NCBI RefSeq assembly: GCF_014773545.1
Contig: NZ_SDDV01000003.1
Coordinates: forward strand, 62,001 to 126,000
Direction of reading: 5' to 3'
DNA: 64,000 bases
From: Hydrogenophaga sp.
GTDB taxonomy: Bacteria; Pseudomonadota; Gammaproteobacteria; Burkholderiales; Burkholderiaceae_C
Part shown: piece by piece, positions 11,970 through 63,891 of the stretch
Layout of the letters: the number at the start of each line of letters is the position of its first letter
How positions within the stretch are numbered: position 1 is the stretch's first letter
Program-made: the position numbers and the translations under genes
Notes under the pieces: model-generated
Databases searched by the model: none
What the model was told of the DNA's origin: nothing
The model's input: only the letters and a program-made list of their open reading frames with translations

Positions 11970-12686
11970 TCAGCGATAGCGGTCAGCCAGCGAGGATGCC
12001 GGTTCTCCGCGCCAGTAGCGCCAGCGCAAGAACCACATGAGAAAAATGGTGCGCCACACACCTCTCTTCTCCCAGCGCCGGCCCGAGGTGATCACGCGCT
12101 CCCGTAGGCAGGCTGGTTTTCCAATCTGCTGGCGCAGCGACATCAGCCGTGCGCTCAGCTCGACATCTTCCATCAGCGGCTGATCAGGGTATCCACCCAC
12201 GAGGTCGAATACGTCGCGCCGCACAAAAATCGCTTGGTCCCCGGTGGCGATGCCGCTCCACCGCGATCGAAGGTTCATCATGGCGGAGACCAGGCGCAGC
12301 ACAGGACTCACGCCATCGATGGCGACGTCGAATCTGCCCCATGCACGTCCCGCACGGGCCGCAGCCTGGATCTGTGCAAGGGCACGCGGAGGAAGCACGG
12401 TATCGGCGTGCAGGAAGAGGAGCCAACTCCCTTGTGCAGCATGCGCGCCCATGTTCATCTGTCTGGCCCGTCCGCGAGGGGCCAGGAGCACGCGGTGGGC
12501 ATGGAGTGCGGCCAGGTCCCCGGTCCCGTCAGTGCTTGCGCCATCGACAACGACGACTTCGATACCGTCGTTTCCCTTCAACGAAGGCTGCTGCAAAAAC
12601 GCGGAGATGCCGGCTGCTTCGTTCAGGGTCGGAACGATCACGCTCAGCCAGGGAGACTCAACACCACTCACAGGAGACCTTGGCAA
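11970..12686 (-). CDS. TIGR04283-type family 2 glycosyltransferase (rSAM/selenodomain-associated)
   Basis: GT-A glycosyltransferase of the kind repeatedly found next to ArsS-type radical SAM genes. The 238 residues include LSVIVPTLNEAAGI, VVDGASTDGT and the DXD-like LFLHADTVLPP, with a basic, aromatic C-terminus (WFLRWRYWRGEPA) typical of this subfamily. It starts 9 nt after the MTA-phosphorylase-type gene and ends the operon. The natural acceptor is not established; in the arsenosugar proposal it would act on an As-containing nucleoside derivative, which is inference here. Confidence 0.85.
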   Translation of the reverse strand: MPRSPVSGVESPWLSVIVPTLNEAAGISAFLQQPSLKGNDGIEVVVVDGASTDGTGDLAALHAHRVLLAPRGRARQMNMGAHAAQGSWLLFLHADTVLPPRALAQIQAAARAGRAWGRFDVAIDGVSPVLRLVSAMMNLRSRWSGIATGDQAIFVRRDVFDLVGGYPDQPLMEDVELSARLMSLRQQIGKPACLRERVITSGRRWEKRGVWRTIFLMWFLRWRYWRGEPASSLADRYR

Positions 12687-12695
12687 GTCGTTTCC

Positions 12696-13541
12696 TCATG
12701 AACGCAGTTGGGACACCCACGCCTGCTGGGCCTCGGTCATCGCCTCGTCAGGCGTGAGCAATGCACCCGTCAGGGCTGTGCGGGTCGAAGCCTCGGGGAC
12801 CACAGCCTCGCCGGACAACAGCGCGTCCAGCAGCCGACGCGCCTTGGCCAGGCTCTGCCCGTAGAGCTCGAACACGGCCGACACGCTGACGTGTTGTGCG
12901 GGGTCGTCGAGCCAGCAGTCGTAGTCGGTCACCAGGCCCACGGTGGCGTACGCCATCTGGGCTTCGCGCGCCAGGAACACCTCGGGCGCGTTGGTCATTC
13001 CCACCAGGTGGCAGCCCATCTGGCGCAGCAAGTGGCTCTCGGCCTGCGTGCCCAGACGGGGACCGTCCACGCAGGCGTAGGTCAGTCCCCGGTGCACCGA
13101 CAGGCCGGCCCGATCAGCGGCGGCCATGACCGCATCGACCAGCGCGCTGCTCACCGGCTTGGCGGTGGAAACGTGTGCGGCGACACCGCCACCGAAGAAG
13201 GTCCGCTCGCGCGCACCCCGGGTCCAGTCGATGTATTGCTCGGGCATCGCAAGATCACCGGGGGCGACCTCCATCGCCAGGCTGCCCACGGCCGAAAACC
13301 CCAGCATCAGGGTGGCGCCGGCGCGCTTGAGCGCATACACGTTGGCGCGGTAGTTCACCTCGTGCGGCAACAGGCGGTGGCCAGCTCCGTGGCGCGCCAA
13401 GAACAGCACCGATTGACCGTGCAGCGTGCCGCGCAACACCTCACCCGAAGGCGTTCCAAACGGCGTGTCGCCGCCCAGGCGTTCGTGGATGTCCAGACCG
13501 TCGAGTTCGTAGAGGCCGGTGCCTCCGATGATGGCGAGCAT
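12696..13541 (-). CDS. S-methyl-5'-thioadenosine/thioinosine phosphorylase-type enzyme
   Basis: Nucleoside phosphorylase of the MTAP/MTIP branch, cleaving 5'-modified nucleosides to base and 5'-modified ribose 1-phosphate. The 281 residues show LAIIGGTGLYELDG, the phosphate-binding HGAGHRLLPHEVNYRANVYA, the MTNAPEVFLAREA segment and VTDYDCW with the base-contacting aspartate. In this operon it could remove adenine from a 5'-deoxy-5'-modified adenosine product of the radical SAM enzyme. That role is inferred from context. A standalone methionine-salvage enzyme is the alternative. Confidence 0.87.
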   Translation of the reverse strand: MLAIIGGTGLYELDGLDIHERLGGDTPFGTPSGEVLRGTLHGQSVLFLARHGAGHRLLPHEVNYRANVYALKRAGATLMLGFSAVGSLAMEVAPGDLAMPEQYIDWTRGARERTFFGGGVAAHVSTAKPVSSALVDAVMAAADRAGLSVHRGLTYACVDGPRLGTQAESHLLRQMGCHLVGMTNAPEVFLAREAQMAYATVGLVTDYDCWLDDPAQHVSVSAVFELYGQSLAKARRLLDALLSGEAVVPEASTRTALTGALLTPDEAMTEAQQAWVSQLRS

Positions 13542-13741: not shown

Positions 13742-14893
13742 TCATGGGGTGTTTCCAGATGAAACGGGTTGGACAAGGCCGCAGTGCGCGGCGGGGGACT
13801 GGAACCGGGCCAGAAAGCCACGGTCGATGCGATCCTTCAGGCGCCAGAGCCAGCGGCCCTCGGCATGCAGTCGGCCGCGTGAGCCGATGGCGCGTCCGTC
13901 GGCCGTGGCCAGCAAGGCCAGGAAATTGTGCTGAGGCTTGAACGAAGCGGGCGCTGCGTCACCCAAAGCCGCGCGCAGGTTTCGGCTCAACACCGGTCCC
14001 ATGCGAACCGCGTACACGCCCGCCTTGGGCAGCGGGAAGGTCCAGTGCGCACAGTCCCCCGCGGCGTACACGTTGGGGTGGGAGACACTGCGCAGCTCAG
14101 GGTTGACGCGCACGAAGCCCTGCTCGCTGACAGCAAGACCCCCGCGGCGAGCCGCATCGGTCTGCCACGCATGTGCTTGCGCGCCCGTGCCCCACAGCAA
14201 GAGGTCCGTGTGTTCGGCCATCGCAGGCGTCCAGGGGGTTGCGACGCGCAGTCGAACGCCCGCTTTGGTCAGCGCCTGTTCAGCCGATCGAACCGCGCCC
14301 CGCGCCAGACCTGGCAGCAACTGCCCCCCTCGGGTCACCAGCTCGGCCTGCACCGGCCGCTGGGGCTGAAGTGCGCGCAGCCGTGCAAGCACAGCCAGCA
14401 GCGACTCGAAGCCTGCGGCCCCACCGCCCACGGCAGTCACGCGAATGGCATTGCCGGCGGCCATCTCGCCGCTGCAGACATCCTGTAGCACACGGTCCCA
14501 TCGGGTTTTGAGCTCTCCCAGCGGGCGCAGCGCAAGCACCTGTGGGCCGTCGACAGAGGGGGGACGCAGCGTGGAGCCCACGTTGAGCGACGCCACATCG
14601 AAGTCGACGACAACCCCGCTGGCCAATCGCGCGCTGTTGCTGCCCGGGTCCAGGGCGTGCAGCTCGTCCGTCAGAAACGTGGCGCCAGCGCGGCGTGCCA
14701 ACTGGTCGAAATCGATACAGATCTCTTCAAAGCCGTAGCTGCCCCCCAGCCAGCCTGGGACCATGCCCGAATAGGGCGCCAGCGCGTGGGGCGAAACCAC
14801 GCAAAGCTCGGCGCCAGGAACCGGGCGATGCGCCCAATCCAGCAAGACCTGTGCGTGGGCATGGCCCGCTCCGATCAGCAGCAGGCGCCTCAC
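13742..14893 (-). CDS. TIGR03169-type pyridine nucleotide-disulfide oxidoreductase (SelD-associated)
   Basis: FAD/NAD(P)H oxidoreductase resembling the N-terminal domain fused to selenide-water dikinase in some bacteria. The start GTG (14893) overlaps the upstream stop (GTGA) and gives RRLLLIGAGHAHAQVL, a FAD-binding Rossmann motif. A second nucleotide-binding site VTAVGGGAAGFESL and the FAD-binding ATG-like GDCAHW region (VYAAGDCAHW) follow. The protein has 383 residues. No CxxxxC redox disulfide is present, so it is closer to type II NADH dehydrogenase-like proteins. Its substrate in this operon is unknown. Confidence 0.83.
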   Translation of the reverse strand: MRRLLLIGAGHAHAQVLLDWAHRPVPGAELCVVSPHALAPYSGMVPGWLGGSYGFEEICIDFDQLARRAGATFLTDELHALDPGSNSARLASGVVVDFDVASLNVGSTLRPPSVDGPQVLALRPLGELKTRWDRVLQDVCSGEMAAGNAIRVTAVGGGAAGFESLLAVLARLRALQPQRPVQAELVTRGGQLLPGLARGAVRSAEQALTKAGVRLRVATPWTPAMAEHTDLLLWGTGAQAHAWQTDAARRGGLAVSEQGFVRVNPELRSVSHPNVYAAGDCAHWTFPLPKAGVYAVRMGPVLSRNLRAALGDAAPASFKPQHNFLALLATADGRAIGSRGRLHAEGRWLWRLKDRIDRGFLARFQSPAAHCGLVQPVSSGNTP

Positions 14894-15561
14894 GAGCTGG
14901 CCTCGCACCCGGTCCAGCCGGCAGGCAGATGCACAAGATCTTGCGGCTCGTCGATGTCGGCCACCGCAGGCAGCTCGGTGAATCGAAGCCCGGCCTCCCG
15001 GGCGCGCTGTCGTGTGAGGGCCATCACCTGGGGCGTGCTCCACGGCATGTCATGAAACAGAGCGGGACATTCGCGCCGCAGTCCCACCAGCGCGTAGCCG
15101 CCATCGAGCGCAGGGACAAACACCGCATCGATGGCCTCGCAGCCGCGCTCCGTGCTCGAAGCCGGATGGGACGGGGGGGCTTCAAGACGTTGCAACGCCG
15201 CGCGCAGCACGCTGCTGCTCAGCGCAGGCGCATCTGTACCCATCAACAGCACACGGCCGTGCAGCACGAAGGCTTGCTGGAATGCCCGGTGCATGCGCGC
15301 ACCCAGATCGCCGCTGCCCTGTTCGCTCAGTTGCACGTTCTGTTGCTGCTGCAGGCGCTGGAAAGCAAGGTGATGGCGGTCGGGCGCTGCGCACAGGACC
15401 ACCGCATCCGCGCCGGCACCGGCCGCCTGGCTCACGGCATGGCTCAGCAACTGGTCGGCGAGCCTGGCAGCACCGTGGGGCCCCAGGGCTGGAATCAACC
15501 GCGTCTTGGCGTACCCTGCCAGCGGCGCCTTCGCCAGCACCACGATGCAGCTCCTGCTCAC
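14890..15561 (-). CDS. TIGR04282-type glycosyltransferase/nucleotidyltransferase-like (rSAM/selenodomain-associated)
   Basis: GT-A fold transferase of the DUF2064 group that accompanies ArsS-type radical SAM proteins. GTG at 15561 overlaps the arsS stop (GTGA, 15558-15561) and begins VSRSCIVVLAKAPLAGYAKT, the family's hallmark (KxPxxGxxKTRL). RVLLMGTDAPALS and FVPALDGGYALVGL are the two other conserved blocks. 223 residues. Overlapping stops and starts on both sides imply a tightly coupled operon. Confidence 0.86.
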   Translation of the reverse strand: MSRSCIVVLAKAPLAGYAKTRLIPALGPHGAARLADQLLSHAVSQAAGAGADAVVLCAAPDRHHLAFQRLQQQQNVQLSEQGSGDLGARMHRAFQQAFVLHGRVLLMGTDAPALSSSVLRAALQRLEAPPSHPASSTERGCEAIDAVFVPALDGGYALVGLRRECPALFHDMPWSTPQVMALTRQRAREAGLRFTELPAVADIDEPQDLVHLPAGWTGCEASS

Positions 15562-16547
15562 GGCGTGCCTTGCAACACCCCACCCGACTCCAGCGCACCG
15601 CCACAACTGCTGCCCTGTCCCGCTGTGCAGCCGTAGCAGTGGTCGGCGATCCGTATGGACTCGCCCTCGGGGTCGACCTGCAACAGATCCCGCAGGTGCG
15701 GGCGGAAGGTCTTGCCCAGACGCGCTGGCAGACCCAGCATCTGGTTGAAATCGCAGTCGTACAGATCCCCCTGCCAATCCACGCTGATCATGGAGCGGCA
15801 CATCACGGTGTCGAGGTTGTCGGCCTGGTAAGCCCCGCGCAACATCTGCATGTAGGCGCCAAACGTTCCCTTGGACACCAGCGTGCTGCCGAATCGCTGC
15901 ACCGGCATGTTGGTCAGCGCAAACAGGTGGTTGAAGCGGATGCCGAAATGCTGCAGCAGTTCGCGCTTGTAGTCGGCTTCCAGCGCACCCTGCGGCGGCG
16001 GCAGCGACGGTCCTTGCGGGTTGTAGACGAGGTTCAGCGTGAGGCCGCTGCCCTCGACCCCGTAGCCCAGGGCGTTGAGTTGCCGCAGCCCGGCGATGCT
16101 GAGGTCGAACACGCCATCGCCTCGCTGGCGGTCCACGTTGGCCGGGGAATAACACGGCAGGGAAGCCACCACCTGCACGCCCTGCGCAGCCAGGAAAGCG
16201 GCGAGGTCGTCCTGACCTGGCTCGCTGAGGATGGTCAGATTGCAGCGGTCGATCACCTCGACGCCGAGCGATCGAGCCGCCGCCACGAGGCGCCTGAAAT
16301 GCACGCTGAGCTCCGGTGCACCGCCGGTGAGGTCCAGCGTGGCAATGCGCCGCGCTTGCAGCACCTCGATGACCAAGTCCGCCGTGTCGCTGTCCATCAT
16401 CTCCGTGCGCTTGGGGCCGGCATTGACGTGGCAGTGCAGGCAAGACTGGTTGCAGCGGTAGCCCAGATTGACCTGCAGGGTGCTCAGGTGTTGGCGACGC
16501 ATGGCGGGAAAGTCGGTGGCGATGAGCAGCGGCAGGGTGGCGTGCAT
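15558..16547 (-). CDS. arsS: ArsS-like radical SAM/Cys-rich protein (TIGR04167)
   Basis: Radical SAM enzyme of the family assigned to arsenosugar biosynthesis, where it joins a 5'-deoxyadenosyl group to dimethylarsinite. The cluster motif is RCNQSCLHCH with Cys32, Cys36 and Cys39 ligating the [4Fe-4S] cluster, followed by LTGGAPEL. The C-terminal part carries DLYDCDFNQML and the Cys-rich HCYGCTAGQGSSCGG. 329 residues, normal length. No arsM methyltransferase or other ars gene is visible nearby, so an arsenic role is a family-level inference. An ECF-type promoter (16582-16610) lies in front. Confidence 0.88.
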   Translation of the reverse strand: MHATLPLLIATDFPAMRRQHLSTLQVNLGYRCNQSCLHCHVNAGPKRTEMMDSDTADLVIEVLQARRIATLDLTGGAPELSVHFRRLVAAARSLGVEVIDRCNLTILSEPGQDDLAAFLAAQGVQVVASLPCYSPANVDRQRGDGVFDLSIAGLRQLNALGYGVEGSGLTLNLVYNPQGPSLPPPQGALEADYKRELLQHFGIRFNHLFALTNMPVQRFGSTLVSKGTFGAYMQMLRGAYQADNLDTVMCRSMISVDWQGDLYDCDFNQMLGLPARLGKTFRPHLRDLLQVDPEGESIRIADHCYGCTAGQGSSCGGALESGGVLQGTP

Positions 16548-16581: not shown

Positions 16582-16610
16582 CTGTCGTGCGCCGCCGCGT
16601 ACCGGTTACA
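16582..16610 (-). promoter_or_regulatory. Predicted ECF-sigma promoter of the arsS operon
   Basis: TGTAACC (16604-16610), exactly 16 nt, then CGACAG, reading on the minus strand toward arsS, whose ATG lies 35 nt beyond the CGACAG. The same TGTAACC-N16-CG pattern precedes the sigma factor gene and the divergent TVP38-flavoprotein gene. Confidence 0.6.
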
Positions 16611-16649
16611 GCTCGGCAGAGAAATGCCGTCGGCAGCCTTGGCGCTGCC

Positions 16650-17285
16650 TCACCAGCGCAGCAAGCGTGGCCCGAGAACGGCGCCCAGCAGACCGGTGAG
16701 CAAGATGCCCAGTGAGTACCAGACCGCCACGAACGTGGCCGAGACTTCGGAGCACACCAGAGAATAACCCATGGCGCCCAATGCGCCAGCCATCAATCCG
16801 GCGTTGAAGCCGGCCGCCCGCAGTTGGGTGGGCGCCAGCCCGCGCAAGGCCCAGAGCGCACCGGCCAGCGCCGGCAGCGACAGCAGCAGCACGTTTCTGG
16901 GGCAGACGAGCCACATTTCACCGAGCAATGCCGCCATGCGTTGATCCGGCGCACTGCTCAGCAGGGTCAGCGCACCCCAGGCCAACATGCTTGCGAAGAC
17001 GGCTAGAATGGCCCGCAGGGGCCATTGCGTGCGCGCCACTGGCCGAGCGAGTCGGGCGGTCAGCCAGCCTGCCGCCAGCGCCAGACTGGCGCCGTAGATC
17101 AGCTTCATCCACGGTGCCGGCGTCGTGTACATGGCCGCAGGAATGGGTTCCATGCTCAACAGCGCGAACAGGGCGCTGGCGAACAGGCCGACAGCCATCG
17201 CCGGAGCCAGGCGACGCAACACCGGCGCCTGCGGAGCAGGCCCGGCGCCCTTGGCCAACATGTCGATAAGCGATTGCGTTTTCAT
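16650..17285 (-). CDS. nrsF: DUF1109/NrsF-type membrane anti-sigma factor
   Basis: Integral membrane protein of 211 residues with about six hydrophobic helices, beginning MKTQSLIDMLAKGAGPAP. The family (DUF1109) includes Caulobacter NrsF, the negative regulator of ECF factor SigF, in which conserved cysteines are involved in metal sensing; here cysteines occur in MWLVCPRN and YSLVCSEVS. The ATG overlaps the sigma factor stop (ATGA, 17282-17285), so the two are translationally coupled. A longer same-frame reading upstream only runs through the sigma gene. Confidence 0.87.
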   Translation of the reverse strand: MKTQSLIDMLAKGAGPAPQAPVLRRLAPAMAVGLFASALFALLSMEPIPAAMYTTPAPWMKLIYGASLALAAGWLTARLARPVARTQWPLRAILAVFASMLAWGALTLLSSAPDQRMAALLGEMWLVCPRNVLLLSLPALAGALWALRGLAPTQLRAAGFNAGLMAGALGAMGYSLVCSEVSATFVAVWYSLGILLTGLLGAVLGPRLLRW

Positions 17286-17848
17286 GATCCTGTGTCTTTC
17301 ACCCATTGCGCCAGCCGCTTCAACCCCCTGTGCACCTGAACCTTGATGGCCGACTCCGAGATGCCGGTGCGCAGCGAGGCTTCGGAGACCGACAAACCTT
17401 CGATCTTTGTCAGCACGATGGCCTGTCGCTGCACATCGGGCAGTTCCTGGAGCAGCCGCTCCAGATCGCGCCGCGCACCATCTTCGGTCGGCTCGGCGGC
17501 CAGCAAGGCCTCGTCCACATCGTCCAGCGCGTCGTGGAGGCTCTCTCTGCGTCCACGGCGCCTCCACAGATCGACCAGCTTGTGGCGGGCGATCGCCGTG
17601 ACCCAGGCACTGACCGGCAAAGTCGGATCAAACGTTGCGCGTTGCAGGTGCAGCGCCAGCAAAGTCTCTTGCACCAGGTCCTCGATTTCATCTGGCGTCG
17701 ATTGCATGCGCCGCCGCAGAAACCCCCGGATGCGCAACGCAATCTTCTCCAACGCCTCGCGGTAAGCCACTTCGTCACCCTGCTGCGCACGCAGCCACAG
17801 CGGTTTCAGGCTCGCCTCGAAGTCATTGGGACCTGTCTCTGAGGGCAT
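17282..17848 (-). CDS. ECF RNA polymerase sigma factor (SigF-like, paired with DUF1109)
   Basis: 188-residue sigma-70-family factor from the ATG at 17848. Region 2 spans IRGFLRRRMQ...EIEDLVQETLLALH...VSAWVTAIARHKLVDLWRRR, and region 4 spans LPDVQRQAIVLTKIEGLSVSEA...SESAIKVQVHRGLKRL. It forms an operon with the membrane anti-sigma gene. The assigned ATG falls on the CGAAAT of a TGTAACC-N16-CG promoter match, so a transcript from that promoter would be essentially leaderless or begin just inside the gene. Either the start is misplaced or a second promoter is used. Confidence 0.92.
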   Translation of the reverse strand: MPSETGPNDFEASLKPLWLRAQQGDEVAYREALEKIALRIRGFLRRRMQSTPDEIEDLVQETLLALHLQRATFDPTLPVSAWVTAIARHKLVDLWRRRGRRESLHDALDDVDEALLAAEPTEDGARRDLERLLQELPDVQRQAIVLTKIEGLSVSEASLRTGISESAIKVQVHRGLKRLAQWVKDTGS

Positions 17849-17875
17849 TTCGTTGAAGCGGCTGCTTTGGTTACA
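17846..17875 (-). promoter_or_regulatory. Predicted ECF-sigma autoregulatory promoter
   Basis: TGTAACC (17869-17875), 16 nt beginning AAAGC, then CGAAAT running into the annotated start codon of the sigma factor gene on the minus strand. The motif matches the other two copies in spacing. Its overlap with the ATG makes its use for full-length sigma uncertain. Confidence 0.5.
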
Positions 17876-17941
17876 AGGGTCGGTGAAGGTGAGATCAAAT
17901 GCCGCCCAGGCACAGGGTCGACCCGGGAATTCTGCACTGCC

Positions 17942-17970
17942 TGTAACCAAAGGCGCTTGGGATTCGTAAA
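17942..17970 (+). promoter_or_regulatory. Predicted ECF-sigma promoter of the TVP38-flavoprotein operon
   Basis: TGTAACC (17942-17948), 16 nt beginning AAAGG, then CGTAAA (17965-17970) on the plus strand. The predicted start of transcription falls around 17975, about 10 nt before the ATG at 17984. It faces away from the sigma-gene copy across about 70 bp. Confidence 0.6.
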
Positions 17971-17983
17971 GAAGGGGCGCTCC

Positions 17984-20236
17984 ATGCCCTTTCAATTTTT
18001 CAAGGCGTCCCCGATGCAAGCCTCTCCCGCAAACAGCACCAGCGTGCCTCAGCCGGCCCCGGCGTCAGGGTCGCGATTCCCGCAACGGGCGTGGCTCTGG
18101 GCCGGTCTTGCTCTCGCCGCCGTGCTCGGCGTGGCGCTGTACCAGCACTTCGGGCTCGGTGAGCTTTTGACACTGGAGCGCCTCAAGCTCAGCCGTGACA
18201 GCTTGATTTCCGCCTACCAGGCGAATCCCGCCTTGGCGATCCTGGCATTCTTCGGCCTCTATGTGGTGGCCACCGCGCTGTCCATCCCTGGCGCCTTGAT
18301 CCTCACACTGGCGGGCGGCGCAATCTTCGGGTTCTGGGTTGGCCTGCTGATCGTGTCGTTTGCCTCCAGCGTGGGCGCGCTGCTGGCCTTTCTCGCGTCG
18401 CGCTACCTGCTGCGTGGCTGGTTGCAGGCGAAATACGCCCGCGCCCTGGCACCCATCAACGAAGGTTTGCAGCGCGACGGCACCGCTTACCTGCTGACCC
18501 TGCGGCTGGTGCCCGTTTTCCCCTTCTGGCTGGTCAATCTCTTGATGGGCTTGACCAGCATCACAGCCACGCGTTTCTACATCGTCAGCCAGATCGGCAT
18601 GTTGGCAGGAACGGCCGTGTTCGTGAACGCCGGCACCCGCGTTGCTGCCCTTGAGTCAGCCGGGGATGTGTTCTCTCCCGCGATGCTGGGCAGTTTCGCC
18701 TTGCTCGGCATCTTTCCGTTGATTTCCAAGGCGCTTGTCGGCTGGTCGCAGCGCCGCAAGGTATACGCGCGCTGGCCCAAACCCGCATCTTTTGACCGCA
18801 ACCTTGTCGTGATCGGCGCGGGTGCAGGTGGTCTCGTGTCGTCGTACATCGCGGCTGCCGTGAAGGCCAAAGTCAGCTTGATCGAAGGCCACAAGATGGG
18901 TGGCGATTGCCTGAACTACGGCTGCGTGCCCAGCAAGGCCCTGATCCGGTCGGCCAAGATGGCCAAACAGTTTCAAAAGGCCGAAGCGTTCGGCTTCAAG
19001 GGCGCCGCTGCCAGTCTCGACTTCGCATCCGTGATGCAACGCATTCATGGCGTCATTCGTGACATCGAGCCGCACGACTCGGTGGAGCGCTACACCCGAC
19101 TGGGCGTCGACGTGGTGCAAGGGCATGCGCGCATCACCTCGCCGTGGAGTGTCGAGATCACGCAGGCAGATGGGCGACAGCGCACGCTCACGACCCGCAA
19201 CATCGTGATTGCAACCGGTGCCAGCCCTTTTGTGCCGCCGATACCCGGACTCCAGGACGCTGGTTTTCTCACCAGCGACACCGTATGGAAGCTCACTGCT
19301 CTGCCCAAGCGCCTGCTCGTGCTGGGTGGCGGACCGATTGGTTGCGAACTCGCGCAAAGCTTTGCCCGGCTGGGCTCCGAAGTCACGCAGGTGGAAATGG
19401 CCCCGCGCGTCATGGTGCGCGAGGACCCGGAGGTATCCGAGATCGTTGCGCAATCGCTGCAAGCCGATGGTGTGCGCCTGTTGACGCAACACCAGGCGGT
19501 TCGCGTGGAGATGGTGGCCGGTGAAAAGCGGCTCATCGCCCGGCACGGCGACCAAGAGGTGGTGATTGCGTTTGACGAGCTGCTGTGTGCGGTGGGCCGC
19601 GCGCCCCGGGTTACCGGGTTCGGCCTGGAGGAACTGGGCATTCCCCTGACATCGCGAAAGACCGTCGAAACCAACGCCTATCTGCAGACGCTGTATCCGA
19701 ACATCTACGCCGTCGGTGACGTCGCTGGCCCCTTCCAGTTCACCCACACGGCGGCCCATCAGGCCTGGTACGCCGCAGTGAACGCCTTGTTTGGGCGCTT
19801 CAAAAAATTCAAGGCCGACTACCGCGTGATCCCATGGGCGACGTTCACCGATCCCGAGGTGGCCCGGGTCGGGCTGTCGGAGACCGAAGCCACGGATCAG
19901 GGCGTCCCCTTTGAAGTCACCCGCTACGGCATCGACGATCTGGACCGGGCAATTGCCGACGGATCGGCCCACGGCTTCGTCAAGGTTCTCACGGTTCCTG
20001 GCAAGGACAAAATCCTAGGCGTCACCATCGTGGGCGAGCACGCGGGCGACCTGTTGGCCGAGTACGTGCTGGCGATGAAGCACGGCCTGGGTCTGAACAA
20101 GATTCTGGGCACGATTCACACCTATCCCACGCTGGCCGAGGCCAACAAATACGTGGCCGGCGAATGGAAACGGGCCCATGCACCGAAGAAACTGTTGCAG
20201 TGGATTGCCAGGTACCACAACTGGGAGCGCGCATGA
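17984..20236 (+). CDS. TVP38/TMEM64 (DedA-like) membrane domain fused to a flavoprotein disulfide oxidoreductase
   Basis: 750-residue fusion. Residues ~35-255 form a TVP38/TMEM64 membrane domain ([19 protein letters not shown], then the [18 protein letters not shown] and [17 protein letters not shown] segments). Residues ~270-750 form a mercuric-reductase/lipoamide-dehydrogenase-like protein: FAD site VVIGAGAGG (278-283), redox disulfide Cys309/Cys314 in [16 protein letters not shown](P)H site [13 protein letters not shown], and the dimer-interface His712/Glu719 in HTYPTLAE. All catalytic parts are present. It probably oxidises NAD(P)H and reduces a disulfide or metal ion near the membrane; the substrate is unknown. 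An ECF-sigma promoter precedes it and GAAGGGG lies before the ATG. A longer reading to 17867 lacks support. Confidence 0.9.
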
Positions 20237-20532
20237 CCCCCACCCGACGCCAGTTTCTCAAGCTCGCCGGGGCTTTCCTTCCAGTAGCACGGTCTGTGGG
20301 TGCGAGCCATGCTGCGGCGTTCGATCATTCCCAGGCTGTCTGGAGCGGCCTGTCCACCCGTTTCTCGGCGCTGGCGCTGCTGGGCATGACTGCCGTCATC
20401 CAGGTGTTCGTGTACCCCGACGCCTACCCCACACACGGGGTCTGGGCCGCCGTGCTGCTCTACCTGATGGCGCACGGCCCGGGAAAGATTTCCGTCGATG
20501 CCCTCATCTGTAGAAACCCCGGGCGCAACTGA
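20233..20532 (+). CDS. DoxX-family protein, shortened
   Basis: 99 residues starting [20 protein letters not shown]; the ATG overlaps the preceding stop (ATGA). The second half, [20 protein letters not shown] and [17 protein letters not shown], is the conserved C-terminal half of DoxX membrane proteins, usually 130-150 residues. The usual first helices are missing or altered between residues 25 and 40, suggesting an internal deletion. It could be a functional short form or a decaying gene. It is co-transcribed with the flavoprotein fusion. Confidence 0.6.
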
Positions 20533-51346: not shown

Positions 51347-53230
51347 TTGGATAAGCGCAAAACCTTGCTGCTGCTGGCCATGCTGCTGGGCCTGAGCGCC
51401 ATTTTCGCGTTCGATCTGGACCGCTATCTGAGTCTGGCTTATTTCCAGCAACAGCAGGCCACGTTCACCGCTTTGTACGCCGAACAGCCGCTGACGGTGG
51501 CGCTGGGTTTTTTCGTCATCTATGCGCTGGGGGCAGCGCTGTCGGTGCCCGGAGTGGGTTTTCTCGCCCTGGCCGCCGGCGCCATTTTTGGCCTGCTCTG
51601 GGGTGTGGTGCTGGTTTCGTTCGCCTCCAGCGTCGGCGCCACGCTGGCTTTTCTGAGCGCCCGTTTCGTGCTGCGCGACCTGATCGAGGCCCGTTTTGGC
51701 AAGCGCTTGCTCCACATCAACCGTGGCATCGCCAAGGACGGTGCGTTCTATCTGTTTAGCCTGCGCATCATTCCGGTGCTGCCTTTTTTCATCATCAACT
51801 TGGCGATGGGACTGACGCAGATCAAAACCCGCACCTATTACTGGGTCAGTCAAATCGGCATGCTGGGCGCCACCGTGGTCTACGTCAACGTCGGCACGCA
51901 ACTCGCCCGCATCGATACAGCGCAGGATATTTTCAGTCCCACCTTGCTCGGCTCGTTGCTGCTGCTGGGCCTGTTTCCCCTGCTGGCGCGCCGAGCTCTT
52001 TCGAGGTTGCGCAAAAGCCTGCGCTGGCTGGGCCGACGCAGCGCGCGGCCGACTGCGTTTGACCGTGAGTTGGTCGTCATCGGTGCTGGCTTGACCGGCC
52101 TGGAGAGCGCCTGCGTCGAAGCCGGCGTTCGCCTGACACGGGTTGTGCCGGCGCCCACCGCAGGCGGTGCGTGCCTGCAGCCAATGCCGCAGCGCACAGG
52201 CCCGGACGTGGAGCTGTTGCAGGGTGCGGCAAAGCTGCTCAATCCCTGGACGCTGCACGTCGCTCTGCGTGCTGGCGGCAGCCGGCGCTTGACTGCGCGC
52301 AGCATTGTCTTTGCCACCGGCACGCAGCCGGTGCTGCCAGACCTGCCCGGGCTGGAGGACGTTGGCTGCACCGACAGCGACGCGCTCTGGCAAAGCCTTG
52401 CCGTGCCCGCGCCCGAGCACGTGCCGCAGCGCCTGCTGGTGCTGGGCGGCAGCCCGACCGGCTGCGAGCTGGCGCAGGCCTTCGCCCGCCGGGGCGCGCA
52501 GGTCACGCTGGTCGAGCAGGCCACGCGCCTGCTGGCGCACGAAGACGAGGACGTGGCCGCACGGGTGTTTTCGTCTTTGCTGGCCGACGGCGTGCAGGTG
52601 CTGCTGCAGCACCAGGCCTTGCGCTGCGCGCGCCAGGGCGAAGAAAAAACCTTGCAGCTCGAACACGCCGGGGGGCAGCGTCGCATCGTTTTCGACCAGC
52701 TCGTCTGCGCCCTGGGCCGGCTGGCGCTGCTTCCAGACCACGGACTGCAAGCGCTCGGCATGGCGACTTCACTGCGTTTGCCGAGCAACACCTGTCTGCA
52801 AGCCCTTTGCCCGCATGTCTACGTGGCCAGCGAAGCGGCCGCTGGCACACCCTTGGGCGGCACTGCGGCGCAGCGGAGCTGGGGCGCGCTGCTGCAGGTG
52901 CTATTGGATGAGAACCATCCGCTGCGGGCCGACGAACACCTGTTTGCCTGCCGCATCGGAACCGACCCCGAACTGGCACGCGCCGGCCTGACCGAGCAAG
53001 CAGCCAAGGAACAAGGGGTTTCGGTGGCGCTGCGCGAGTTTGTGCTGGACGCGCCGGATGCGCCTGCTGGCCCGCAGGCGCAGACCTGGGTCAAAGTACT
53101 CAGCGTCCCGGATGGCAAGCGTGTGCTGGGCCTGAGCGTGCTGGGCCCGCACGCGACCGACGTGTTGCGCAGCCGCCTGCTGACCTTGGACCCGAATCCG
53201 GCCCTTGAGGGCGCGGCCTGCACCGAATGA
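51347..53230 (+). CDS. TVP38/TMEM64-flavoprotein fusion, redox centre lost
   Basis: Paralogue of the fusion at 17984. Residues 1-215 are a TVP38 membrane domain (SVPGVGFLALAAGAIFGLLW, FASSVGATLAFLSARFVLRD, IIPVLPFFIINLAMGL). From ~240 the flavoprotein part begins VVIGAGLTGLESA, but about 60-70 residues following GGAC (276) are missing, removing the second cysteine and the VPSK region; the C-terminal HTYP...E pair is also gone. The NAD(P)H site LVLGGSPTGCELAQAF survives. It probably cannot do disulfide chemistry. Start is TTG 51347 or ATG 51380. Follows rsgA by 27 nt; no ECF-type promoter is seen. Confidence 0.82.
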   Translation: MDKRKTLLLLAMLLGLSAIFAFDLDRYLSLAYFQQQQATFTALYAEQPLTVALGFFVIYALGAALSVPGVGFLALAAGAIFGLLWGVVLVSFASSVGATLAFLSARFVLRDLIEARFGKRLLHINRGIAKDGAFYLFSLRIIPVLPFFIINLAMGLTQIKTRTYYWVSQIGMLGATVVYVNVGTQLARIDTAQDIFSPTLLGSLLLLGLFPLLARRALSRLRKSLRWLGRRSARPTAFDRELVVIGAGLTGLESACVEAGVRLTRVVPAPTAGGACLQPMPQRTGPDVELLQGAAKLLNPWTLHVALRAGGSRRLTARSIVFATGTQPVLPDLPGLEDVGCTDSDALWQSLAVPAPEHVPQRLLVLGGSPTGCELAQAFARRGAQVTLVEQATRLLAHEDEDVAARVFSSLLADGVQVLLQHQALRCARQGEEKTLQLEHAGGQRRIVFDQLVCALGRLALLPDHGLQALGMATSLRLPSNTCLQALCPHVYVASEAAAGTPLGGTAAQRSWGALLQVLLDENHPLRADEHLFACRIGTDPELARAGLTEQAAKEQGVSVALREFVLDAPDAPAGPQAQTWVKVLSVPDGKRVLGLSVLGPHATDVLRSRLLTLDPNPALEGAACTE

Positions 53231-61958: not shown

Positions 61959-62120
61959 GTTCGTCCATACCTACGCAAAGCTAACCATAGGTAGCTTTGC
62001 TGCTGGATTCCTGCTTCACCGAGGCTGGTTTCGTCTTGAGCTTGCGCCCAAGGCCAGAGCCAACTTCTCCACAGGCTGACACGGTGGAACTCACCGCCAG
62101 ATTTCTTAAATTGATTGCTG
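61959..62120 (-). ncRNA. Predicted omega-RNA region of the TnpB element
   Basis: TnpB proteins use an RNA covering the tnpB 3' end and the element's right end, with the guide taken from flanking DNA. The 3' end of tnpB here includes the CAAAGCTA/TAGCTTTG hairpin and the element ends at 61959, so the guide would start GGTTGAGCAACTGGCTCA, hppA sequence. Boundaries are inferred, not seen. Confidence 0.35.
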
Positions 62121-63183
62121 CGTTCACATCGCGGTCGTGATCCGCGCCACAGGCAGGACAAGCCCACTCGCGCAGCGCCAGCGGCAAGGTTTCCAACTTA
62201 TGTCCGCAGTCCGAGCACGTCTTGCTGCTCGGATACCAGCGCTCAGCCAAGACGATCACGCCACCGCGCTGTGCCGCCTTGTACTCCAGTTGCCGGCGGA
62301 ACTCGAAGAAGCCCATGTCGGAAACAGCCCGCGACAAGCGCCGGTTCTTGACCATGCCGCGCACGTTCAAATCCTCGATGCCGATGGTGTGAAACCGGCG
62401 CGTCAGATCAGTCGTGAGTTGGTGCAGCCCATCCTTCCTGACATTGCCGATTCTGGCGTGCAGCCTGGACAACCTGGCCTTGGCCTTCTTGCGGTTCGCC
62501 GAGCCTTTGACCTTGCGCGACAAGCCGCGTGAGAGTCGTCTCAACCGGCACAGCAAAGCCTGGTGCGCCTTTGGCCCCGTGATGATTTCTCCCGTTGAGA
62601 GTGTCGCCAGTGCCGATACGCCCAAATCCACACCCACCGCGCCTTGGTTTTTGGCTTCTGGCACGCGTGAATCGTCCGGGGTATCGACGGTGATGCTGAC
62701 AAACCAGCGGTCGGCCACACGGGAGACCGTGGCCGACATGATCTTGCCAGTGAAGCGCAAGGTCTCACGCATCCGCACCCAGCCCAGATGGGGGATGCGG
62801 ATGCGGGAGCCGTCGATGTCGAATTGGTCGTTGCTCAGGCTGAAACGGTCATGCAGACCTTTCTTTCTGAACTTCGGGAATTTGGCGCGGCCAGCGAAGA
62901 AGTTCTTGAAGGCCGCGCCCAACTGGATGATCGCCATCTGCGGCGCGTTCTTGGTGACTTCCAGCATCCACGGGAACTGCTCGGCCTTGATGCTGTTGAG
63001 GTGGCGGCGCAGCGCCATTTGTGACGGCTTGGGCAGGATGCTGTCGTGTTTCCATGCTTCGTACTGCCGCTGCCATTCGGCCAGCGCCCAGTTGTAGGCA
63101 AAGCGCGCCGTCCCCGCGGCACGGGCAAAGTAAGTCGCCTGCACGTTGTTCGGATCGAGCGCTATTCGGTGGGCAATCAGCAT
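61981..63183 (-). CDS. tnpB: TnpB RNA-guided nuclease (IS607-associated)
   Basis: 400 residues. RuvC residues Asp186 (GVDLGVS), Glu270 (IGIEDLN) and Asp352 (HDRDVNAA) are all present, as is the zinc site Cys323, Cys326, Cys342 and Cys345. It is therefore likely active. ATG 63183 overlaps tnpA by 7 nt. TnpB cleaves the empty donor site and favours element retention. Confidence 0.93.
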
Positions 63184-63839
63184 GAGGCTGCCTCCACGGC
63201 TTGCTTCACGCCATCGAGCAGCTTCTGGTTCTTGCGCGAGCGGCTGCCGTACAGGCGGGCGCTGAACACAGTGATGATCTCCAGCACGTCTTTCGCCAAA
63301 TCTTCCTCCGCGTCTGTACCCTGCTGCGCAGGGCTGGCGTCGCTCCGCGAGTTCGTATCCACACCTTTGTTGATGATGAGCACCTCCACGTCTTTCGCTT
63401 CGCAGATTGCAAAAACCAGTTCCGCGCCAAAGCGCAACAGACGGTCTTTGTGGGCGATGACCAGGCGACCGACACGCCCCTCGATGATTTCGTCGAGCAG
63501 CCGTTTCAAGCCTTTCTTGTTGTAGTTCATGCCGGAGCCCAGATCGGCAATCACCTCGAACGTCCAGCCCTGCTTGGCGCAGTAGAGTTCGAGCACCTGC
63601 TTCTGCCGTTCCAGATCATCTTTCTGGTCATGACTGCTAACACGGGCGTAGGCGATGGTTTTACGGTCTTCCTGCGCGGCATGGAACCATTCCGGCTTGA
63701 GCTTGGCCAGATCATACCGGCGCTGCCGCCCCGCCGTGCGCTCCGGGATCAGCTTACCCTCGACCTCCCAGCGCCGCAGGGTTGTGATCGACACACCCAA
63801 CGCTTCAGAGGCTTCGCCTATCGCTACATATCTGTCCAT
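63177..63839 (-). CDS. tnpA: IS607-family serine recombinase TnpA
   Basis: 220 residues from [21 protein letters not shown]-terminal MerR-like helix-turn-helix, then the small serine-recombinase catalytic domain with [16 protein letters not shown] (nucleophile Ser68) and [12 protein letters not shown]. The frame is open 12 codons further upstream (63875). TTGACA lies upstream within the element as a possible -35. Confidence 0.92.
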
Positions 63840-63891
63840 ATTGCGCAGTGTTGCATAGATATAGATAGATGTCAAGCGAACTGTTTAAACC

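Follow-up and report, generated by a model that had tools for sequence, protein, structure and literature searches.

An extracytoplasmic function (ECF) sigma factor gene of the ECF16 type, sigF, and the gene of its NrsF-family anti-sigma factor, nrsF, were found in a 64,000-nt stretch of Hydrogenophaga sp. DNA (the window), and SigF is predicted, with a probability of about 0.86, to drive its own unit, an ArsS-type radical SAM operon and a TVP38-flavoprotein gene through sites of the form TGTAACC-N16-CG(A/T). A known type of regulator is joined here to a conserved and apparently undescribed target, and the predicted regulation of the ArsS-type operon by SigF is strongly supported by comparison among genomes. 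NrsF would keep SigF bound in the resting cell until its Cys128 and Cys178 meet a thiol-reactive or metal/oxidant signal that releases the sigma factor, as proposed for Caulobacter. Free SigF would then read the promoters before all three units.

An earlier note on this DNA had placed TGTAACC sites with exact 16-nt spacing before the three units, and all three were found to be exact. The predicted promoter of the ArsS operon (16586..16610, minus strand, TGTAACC-N16-CGAC) has a gap of 38 nt between its CG and the ATG at 16547, that of sigF-nrsF (17851..17875, minus strand, TGTAACC-N16-CGAA) a gap of 2 nt to the ATG at 17848, and that of the TVP38-flavoprotein gene (17942..17966, plus strand, TGTAACC-N16-CGTA) a gap of 17 nt to the ATG at 17984. 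The -10 ends of the three are unlike, and only that of sigF is the consensus.

The sigF-nrsF pair and known ECF16 systems

The SigF/ECF16-like sigma factor (17282..17848, minus strand) matches PF04542 and PF08281, and its best NCBIfam model, NF009188, gave 219 bits, under the cut-off of 250. The NrsF/DUF1109 anti-sigma factor beside it (16650..17285, minus strand) matched PF06532 with 194 bits (cut-off 26.8), as the earlier note had read it, and scored 128.6 against the cut-off of 300 of the narrower NrsF equivalog NF042994. Its Cys128 and Cys178 correspond to C131 and C181 of Caulobacter NrsF, which are important there, and both were present in 51 of 51 aligned NrsF sequences, the window's included. 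The predicted promoter of sigF fits the autoregulatory ECF16 consensus tGTAACc-N16-CGAA (PMC3420878, available part) exactly. The likeness to Caulobacter SigF (GTAACC...CGAA) pointed out in the earlier note therefore holds for the promoter consensus and for an NrsF-family anti-sigma factor with both cysteines, and the putative pair is filed as ECF16 on the anti-sigma family, the cysteines and the promoter sequence.

Characterized ECF16 systems resemble this pair in regulator and promoter and differ in their targets or signals, as far as the available parts of the cited papers go. SigF/NrsF of Caulobacter crescentus shares the adjacent sigma and NrsF genes, the two conserved cysteines, GTAACC-N16-CGAA promoters and a small regulon; that regulon differs in holding a sulfite-oxidase-type gene and the operons CC2907-CC2905 and CC3254-CC3257, and the available part of the paper mentions no ArsS cluster (PMC3511200). 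Brucella BcrS/AbcS shares an ECF16 sigma factor with a DUF1109 anti-sigma factor, autoregulation and TGTAAC promoters with a near-identical site, but is HOCl-responsive and drives methionine-rich peptide and MsrPQ-type genes (PMC8315932). Bradyrhizobium EcfF/OsrA likewise shares the ECF16 sigma factor, the DUF1109 anti-sigma factor and a related promoter, but responds to H2O2 and has its own sites, GTAAC(g,a)-N14-15-(c,t)CG(t,a) (PMC3420878). Sinorhizobium meliloti RpoE7/EcfR7, also ECF16, has TGTAAC sites at a divergent target operon and at its own operon; the target operon differs in carrying DUF692 and DUF2063 genes, and RpoE7 reporters gave no response to H2O2, Cd or chromate (PMC6180224). 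The inducers reported in the material available thus vary by species, being chromate/cadmium, HOCl or H2O2. The open-licence literature yielded no paper that connects ECF16 to ArsS, TVP38 or arsenosugar, in keeping with the earlier remark that a radical SAM operon under such control was not known to be described.

NrsF over the cut-off was found in 39 of 250 genomes of the order and 47 of 250 of the family. All 38 NrsF genomes of the order besides the window's were taken, as 40 regions, together with 40 of the 47 from the family; those left out were G000 (the window genome), G234, which was already in the set, and G252, G321, G369, G424 and G460, of which G424 was represented through its ArsS locus and not as an NrsF region. 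A SigF-like match was present in 76 of the 80 regions, and 49 of these 76 had GTAAC-N17-CG within 400 bp upstream of sigF. GTAAC and CG were fixed by the search and only the flanking T, C and AA are informative, with the preceding T in 47/49, the following C in 41/49 and each A after CG in 47/49. The 27 SigF regions without a site include diverged sigma factors (around 30 % identity) and sigma genes that end bufferin operons, with the site some 3 kb upstream. Genes adjacent to sites clustered as sigma factors (40 genomes), DUF2282 bufferins (18), ArsS (9, window included) and others, the names having been given by eye except for one bufferin member checked against Pfam.

The ArsS-type operon and arsenic chemistry

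The earlier description of the radical SAM operon as ArsS-like was borne out by its first gene (15558..16547, minus strand), which matched TIGR04167 with 456 bits (cut-off 300) and PF12345 (DUF3641), and whose translation holds the radical SAM motif CxxxCxxC as CNQSCLHC. On the same strand follow a TIGR04282 glycosyltransferase-like protein (DUF2064; 14890..15561; 184.7 bits, cut-off 134) and a TIGR03169 (Nterm_to_SelD) FAD oxidoreductase (13742..14893; 321 bits, cut-off 310). A methylthioadenosine/methylthioinosine phosphorylase family protein (12696..13541, minus strand) scored 226.7 bits with NF006599 (cut-off 223) and 273.4 with TIGR01694 (cut-off 274.85) and is probably a member of the operon, in which a TIGR04283 glycosyltransferase (11970..12686, minus strand; 263 bits, cut-off 182) is also placed by inference. 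The operon would then comprise arsS, two glycosyltransferase genes, the oxidoreductase gene and probably the phosphorylase gene, and the chemistry is predicted from these families.

The same enzyme families (TIGR04167, TIGR04282, TIGR04283) make up ArsS arsenosugar clusters, and in oxo-arsenosugar synthesis a radical SAM enzyme adenosylates arsenic (PMC12159101, available part). The operon could accordingly encode a true arsenosugar pathway that arsenic switches on via SigF, and with all three families over their NCBIfam cut-offs this is possible, though doubtful. Unlike those clusters, the window's lies under a predicted ECF16-type promoter and has no detectable ArsM in its genome, where NF008823 was searched at E 1e-20 and the ArsM encoded near ArsS of G115 was used as a query at E 1e-25. 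ArsM gave no match in any of the 12 genomes searched that carry the site, exact or relaxed (G000, G005, G131, G181, G240, G260, G301, G415, G424, G439, G443 and G492, of which G415 is 83 % and G492 79 % complete), whereas it was found in 7 of 18 ArsS genomes without NrsF (p 0.024, uncorrected and with shared ancestry) and in 4 of 12 with NrsF but no site. Arsenic is also not among the ECF16 inducers reported in the available parts of the literature. Given the 12 site-bearing genomes in which no ArsM was found, true arsenosugar synthesis is uncertain, and the arsenosugar label rests on family models.

Conservation of the sites

Of the ArsS genes in NrsF genomes, 11 of 28 have the exact site upstream, against 0 of 88 in genomes without NrsF (p 3e-8), in a test of 116 places over the TIGR04167 cut-off at which 300 bp upstream plus 60 bp were inspected; the comparisons share ancestry and their p values are optimistic. 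The sites lie 56-74 bp before the ArsS start, and the background is at most about 0.011 matches per 360 bases. Seventeen of the 28 ArsS genes in NrsF genomes have no exact site, so many ArsS operons would be controlled otherwise. Where ArsS lies within 5 kb of sigF, the exact site was present in 8 of 9 cases, and the ninth (G131) has TGTAACT-N16-CGAA at -245; in G301 a close variant, GGTAACC with CGTA, stands at -60. Two ArsS genes are present in each of four NrsF genomes, and in three of these (G240, G439, G443) the site is on the sigF-linked copy only; in G415 both copies have it, and the -10 of the unlinked copy, CGCA, is poor. ArsS and NrsF occur together in 11 family genomes, with ArsS in 31/250 and NrsF in 47/250 (p 0.024), and lie within 5 kb of each other in 7 of the 11. 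In a second collection, 4 of 80 ArsS loci had an exact site (L263, L264, L267 and L268, from Burkholderiales, Rubrivivax, Roseateles and proteobacterial bins), three of them with sigF-nrsF alongside. L306 and L308 had weak matches only, at -230, L308 with sigF nearby.

A tree was made of 116 ArsS proteins, namely 84 of the 116 tested genes, selected to cover nearly all NrsF genomes, and 32 second-collection loci (36 of 80 entered, four dropped as duplicates), with G131 and G301 counted among the site rows by a relaxed match. The site label required 7 changes, of which at least 5 are forced; after shuffling the mean was 15.2, and none of 500 shuffles gave so low a number. One supported 24-row clade holds 15 of the 16 site rows. 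Within the 84-gene subset the exact site was present in 10/27 genes with NrsF and 0/57 without, and the 32 tested genes absent from the tree add one site, that of the second copy of G415, an NrsF genome. In the 24-row clade plus its sister row, a site was found for 11 of 12 ArsS genes from NrsF genomes (G301 relaxed) and for none of five from genomes without NrsF (p 0.001). This looks like one old association of the site with ArsS, lost along with the sigma factor, plus G131 apart. The ECF control of a radical SAM operon proposed in the earlier note is thus backed, as a prediction, by the upstream sites of ArsS across genomes.

It might be supposed that only the sigF-nrsF promoter is real and that the ArsS and TVP38 sites are functionless inherited neighbours, since the three crowd into less than 1.4 kb and the -10 ends of the window's ArsS and TVP38 sites deviate from the CGAA that predominates in the sigF promoters of relatives. 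Exact sites nevertheless persist at a fixed distance before ArsS genes on contigs other than that of sigF-nrsF (G005, G181, G415), CGAAT is present in 6 of 10 exact ArsS sites other than the window's and in more from the second collection, and the same-clade ArsS genes of the five genomes without NrsF have no site, all of which makes this supposition very improbable.

Sixty windows were simulated at each of the Markov orders 1, 3 and 5; among these 180, matches averaged 0.12-0.15 with a maximum of 2, and three were never reached. When one mismatch was allowed, 8 matches were found in the window against 8.39 expected; the excess is gone, so the signal resides in the exact motif only. A chance origin of the 9-base pattern in a GC-rich genome, with which the one-mismatch count agrees, is refuted by the simulation and by the strong conservation in relatives, and its probability is negligible.

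The full 2.21-Mb genome, a scan of which the earlier note had proposed, held 5 exact matches, and the reversed control pattern gave 18. Three of the five are at the locus and two inside open reading frames (ORFs), one DEAD-helicase-like and one LpxC-like (named by eye). The looser patterns GTAACC-N16-CG (15 matches, control 116) and TGTAAC-N17-CGW (13, control 23) gave no TGTAACC site genome-wide beyond these five. All ten TGTAAC-N17-CGW matches outside the locus lack the seventh base C, and five of them have no covering ORF in a rough test. A large scattered regulon in the window genome is unsupported by the exact matches, and weak further targets elsewhere in it may exist. An identical TGTAAC-N17-CGA string at G000:C6:27064 and G000:C14:98849 suggests a repeated element.

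The TVP38-flavoprotein gene, bufferins and the start of sigF

The third unit (17984..20236, plus strand) encodes a TVP38/VTT membrane domain fused to a MerA/LpdA-like flavoprotein (PF09335, PF07992, PF02852). In 38 of 80 second-collection loci, some of which are incomplete, such proteins (>55 % identical) are encoded downstream of ArsS, in the same orientation and no more than 5 kb away, and the gene directly follows ArsS in this orientation in most relatives with an ArsS site and a long enough stretch. The window's copy is divergent, with a site of its own. L101 (G003) also has a divergent sigF/TVP38-flavoprotein pair with a site, and the G003 ArsS lies elsewhere in that genome without one. 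A second membrane/flavoprotein fusion is encoded at window positions 51347-53230, with MerA-type profile matches that mostly start near residue 287 and no exact motif site nearby. At 61981-63875, two ORFs resemble by eye an IS607-type transposase pair (MerR-like resolvase, TnpB).

An ORF behind the TVP38-flavoprotein gene (20233..20532, plus strand) is chimeric by similarity to L213, L264 and L222, with the start of a DUF547 protein and the end of a DoxX protein. Together with the preceding codons it resembles the DUF547 proteins that follow the TVP38-flavoprotein in L213 and L264 (40-41 % over 67-68 aa); its end matches positions 58-84 of the 85 of the DoxX profile (E 0.019, below the curated cut-off) and shares 72 % identity across 57 aa with the DoxX of L222, which sits between a bufferin and sigF. 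On the simplest reading, the ORF is probably the scar of a deletion that removed a bufferin operon. No DUF2282 bufferin was found in the window genome, and a bufferin operon was rejected as a further target there. The missing DUF2282 and the DoxX scar bring the recognised regulon of this genome down to three units.

Relatives often have copper-buffering bufferin operons under the same sites. The Caulobacter operons CC2907-CC2905 and CC3254-CC3257 are presumably also of the bufferin type. Among 120 ArsS-centred loci, 8 have a bufferin or DoxX match, which in two cases is weak (38 % identity); the genomes of L140, L152, L153 and L154 have no NrsF. The gene order in L334 is ArsS, DUF2282, MNIO, then DoxX and TVP38-flavoprotein. 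The bufferin operons of L334 (7152-13231), L152 and L140 lie within or beside ArsS/TVP38-flavoprotein clusters, with no sigF-nrsF match in the stretches covered. Buf1 clusters carry sigma and NrsF genes, and the available part of the account mentions neither TVP38 nor arsenic (PMC12452194).

The ATG of sigF directly follows the -10 of its own predicted promoter (CGAAATG, window 17846-17852), and the next in-frame ATG, GTG or TTG is codon 27. Nine sigF genes of this clade (window, L097, L212, L213, L219, L221, L223, L228, L263) have an ATG right after C-G-A-(A/C); L099 has an in-frame ATG inside the promoter spacer, and L216 and L225 differ. An induced transcript would be expected to lack this ATG, and either sigF has an unusual start codon, or it would be translated from an upstream transcript only, or transcription would start unusually close. 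For ecfF of Bradyrhizobium, the transcript was mapped to begin 6 bp downstream of the -10, which overlaps the annotated ATG, and a later start codon was preferred by the authors (PMC3420878, available part). The operon-embedded sigF genes of L220, L222, L224 and L226 lack a promoter at this position and carry an ATG there or no more than two codons away, from which the sigF ATG appears on balance to be real; that of L264 has no ATG at the corresponding place.

A joint reading of these observations, tentative and rather unlikely as a whole, would place the ArsS cluster and bufferins in an ECF16 stress response, with the cluster dealing with a stress from an element or thiols that is distinct from classical arsenic methylation, as suggested by the ArsM that was not found and by bufferin operons beside ArsS in genomes without NrsF. 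Its second part is that, with the ATG of the sigF clade at or inside its own promoter, the induced transcript would encode NrsF without a normal SigF start, which would turn positive feedback into a shut-off loop.

If SigF does control the ArsS-type operon as predicted, this would be the first regulatory handle, within the literature searched, on ArsS-type radical SAM clusters in proteobacteria. It would place these clusters in a metal/oxidant stress regulon together with copper-buffering peptides, and their physiological trigger would become directly testable.
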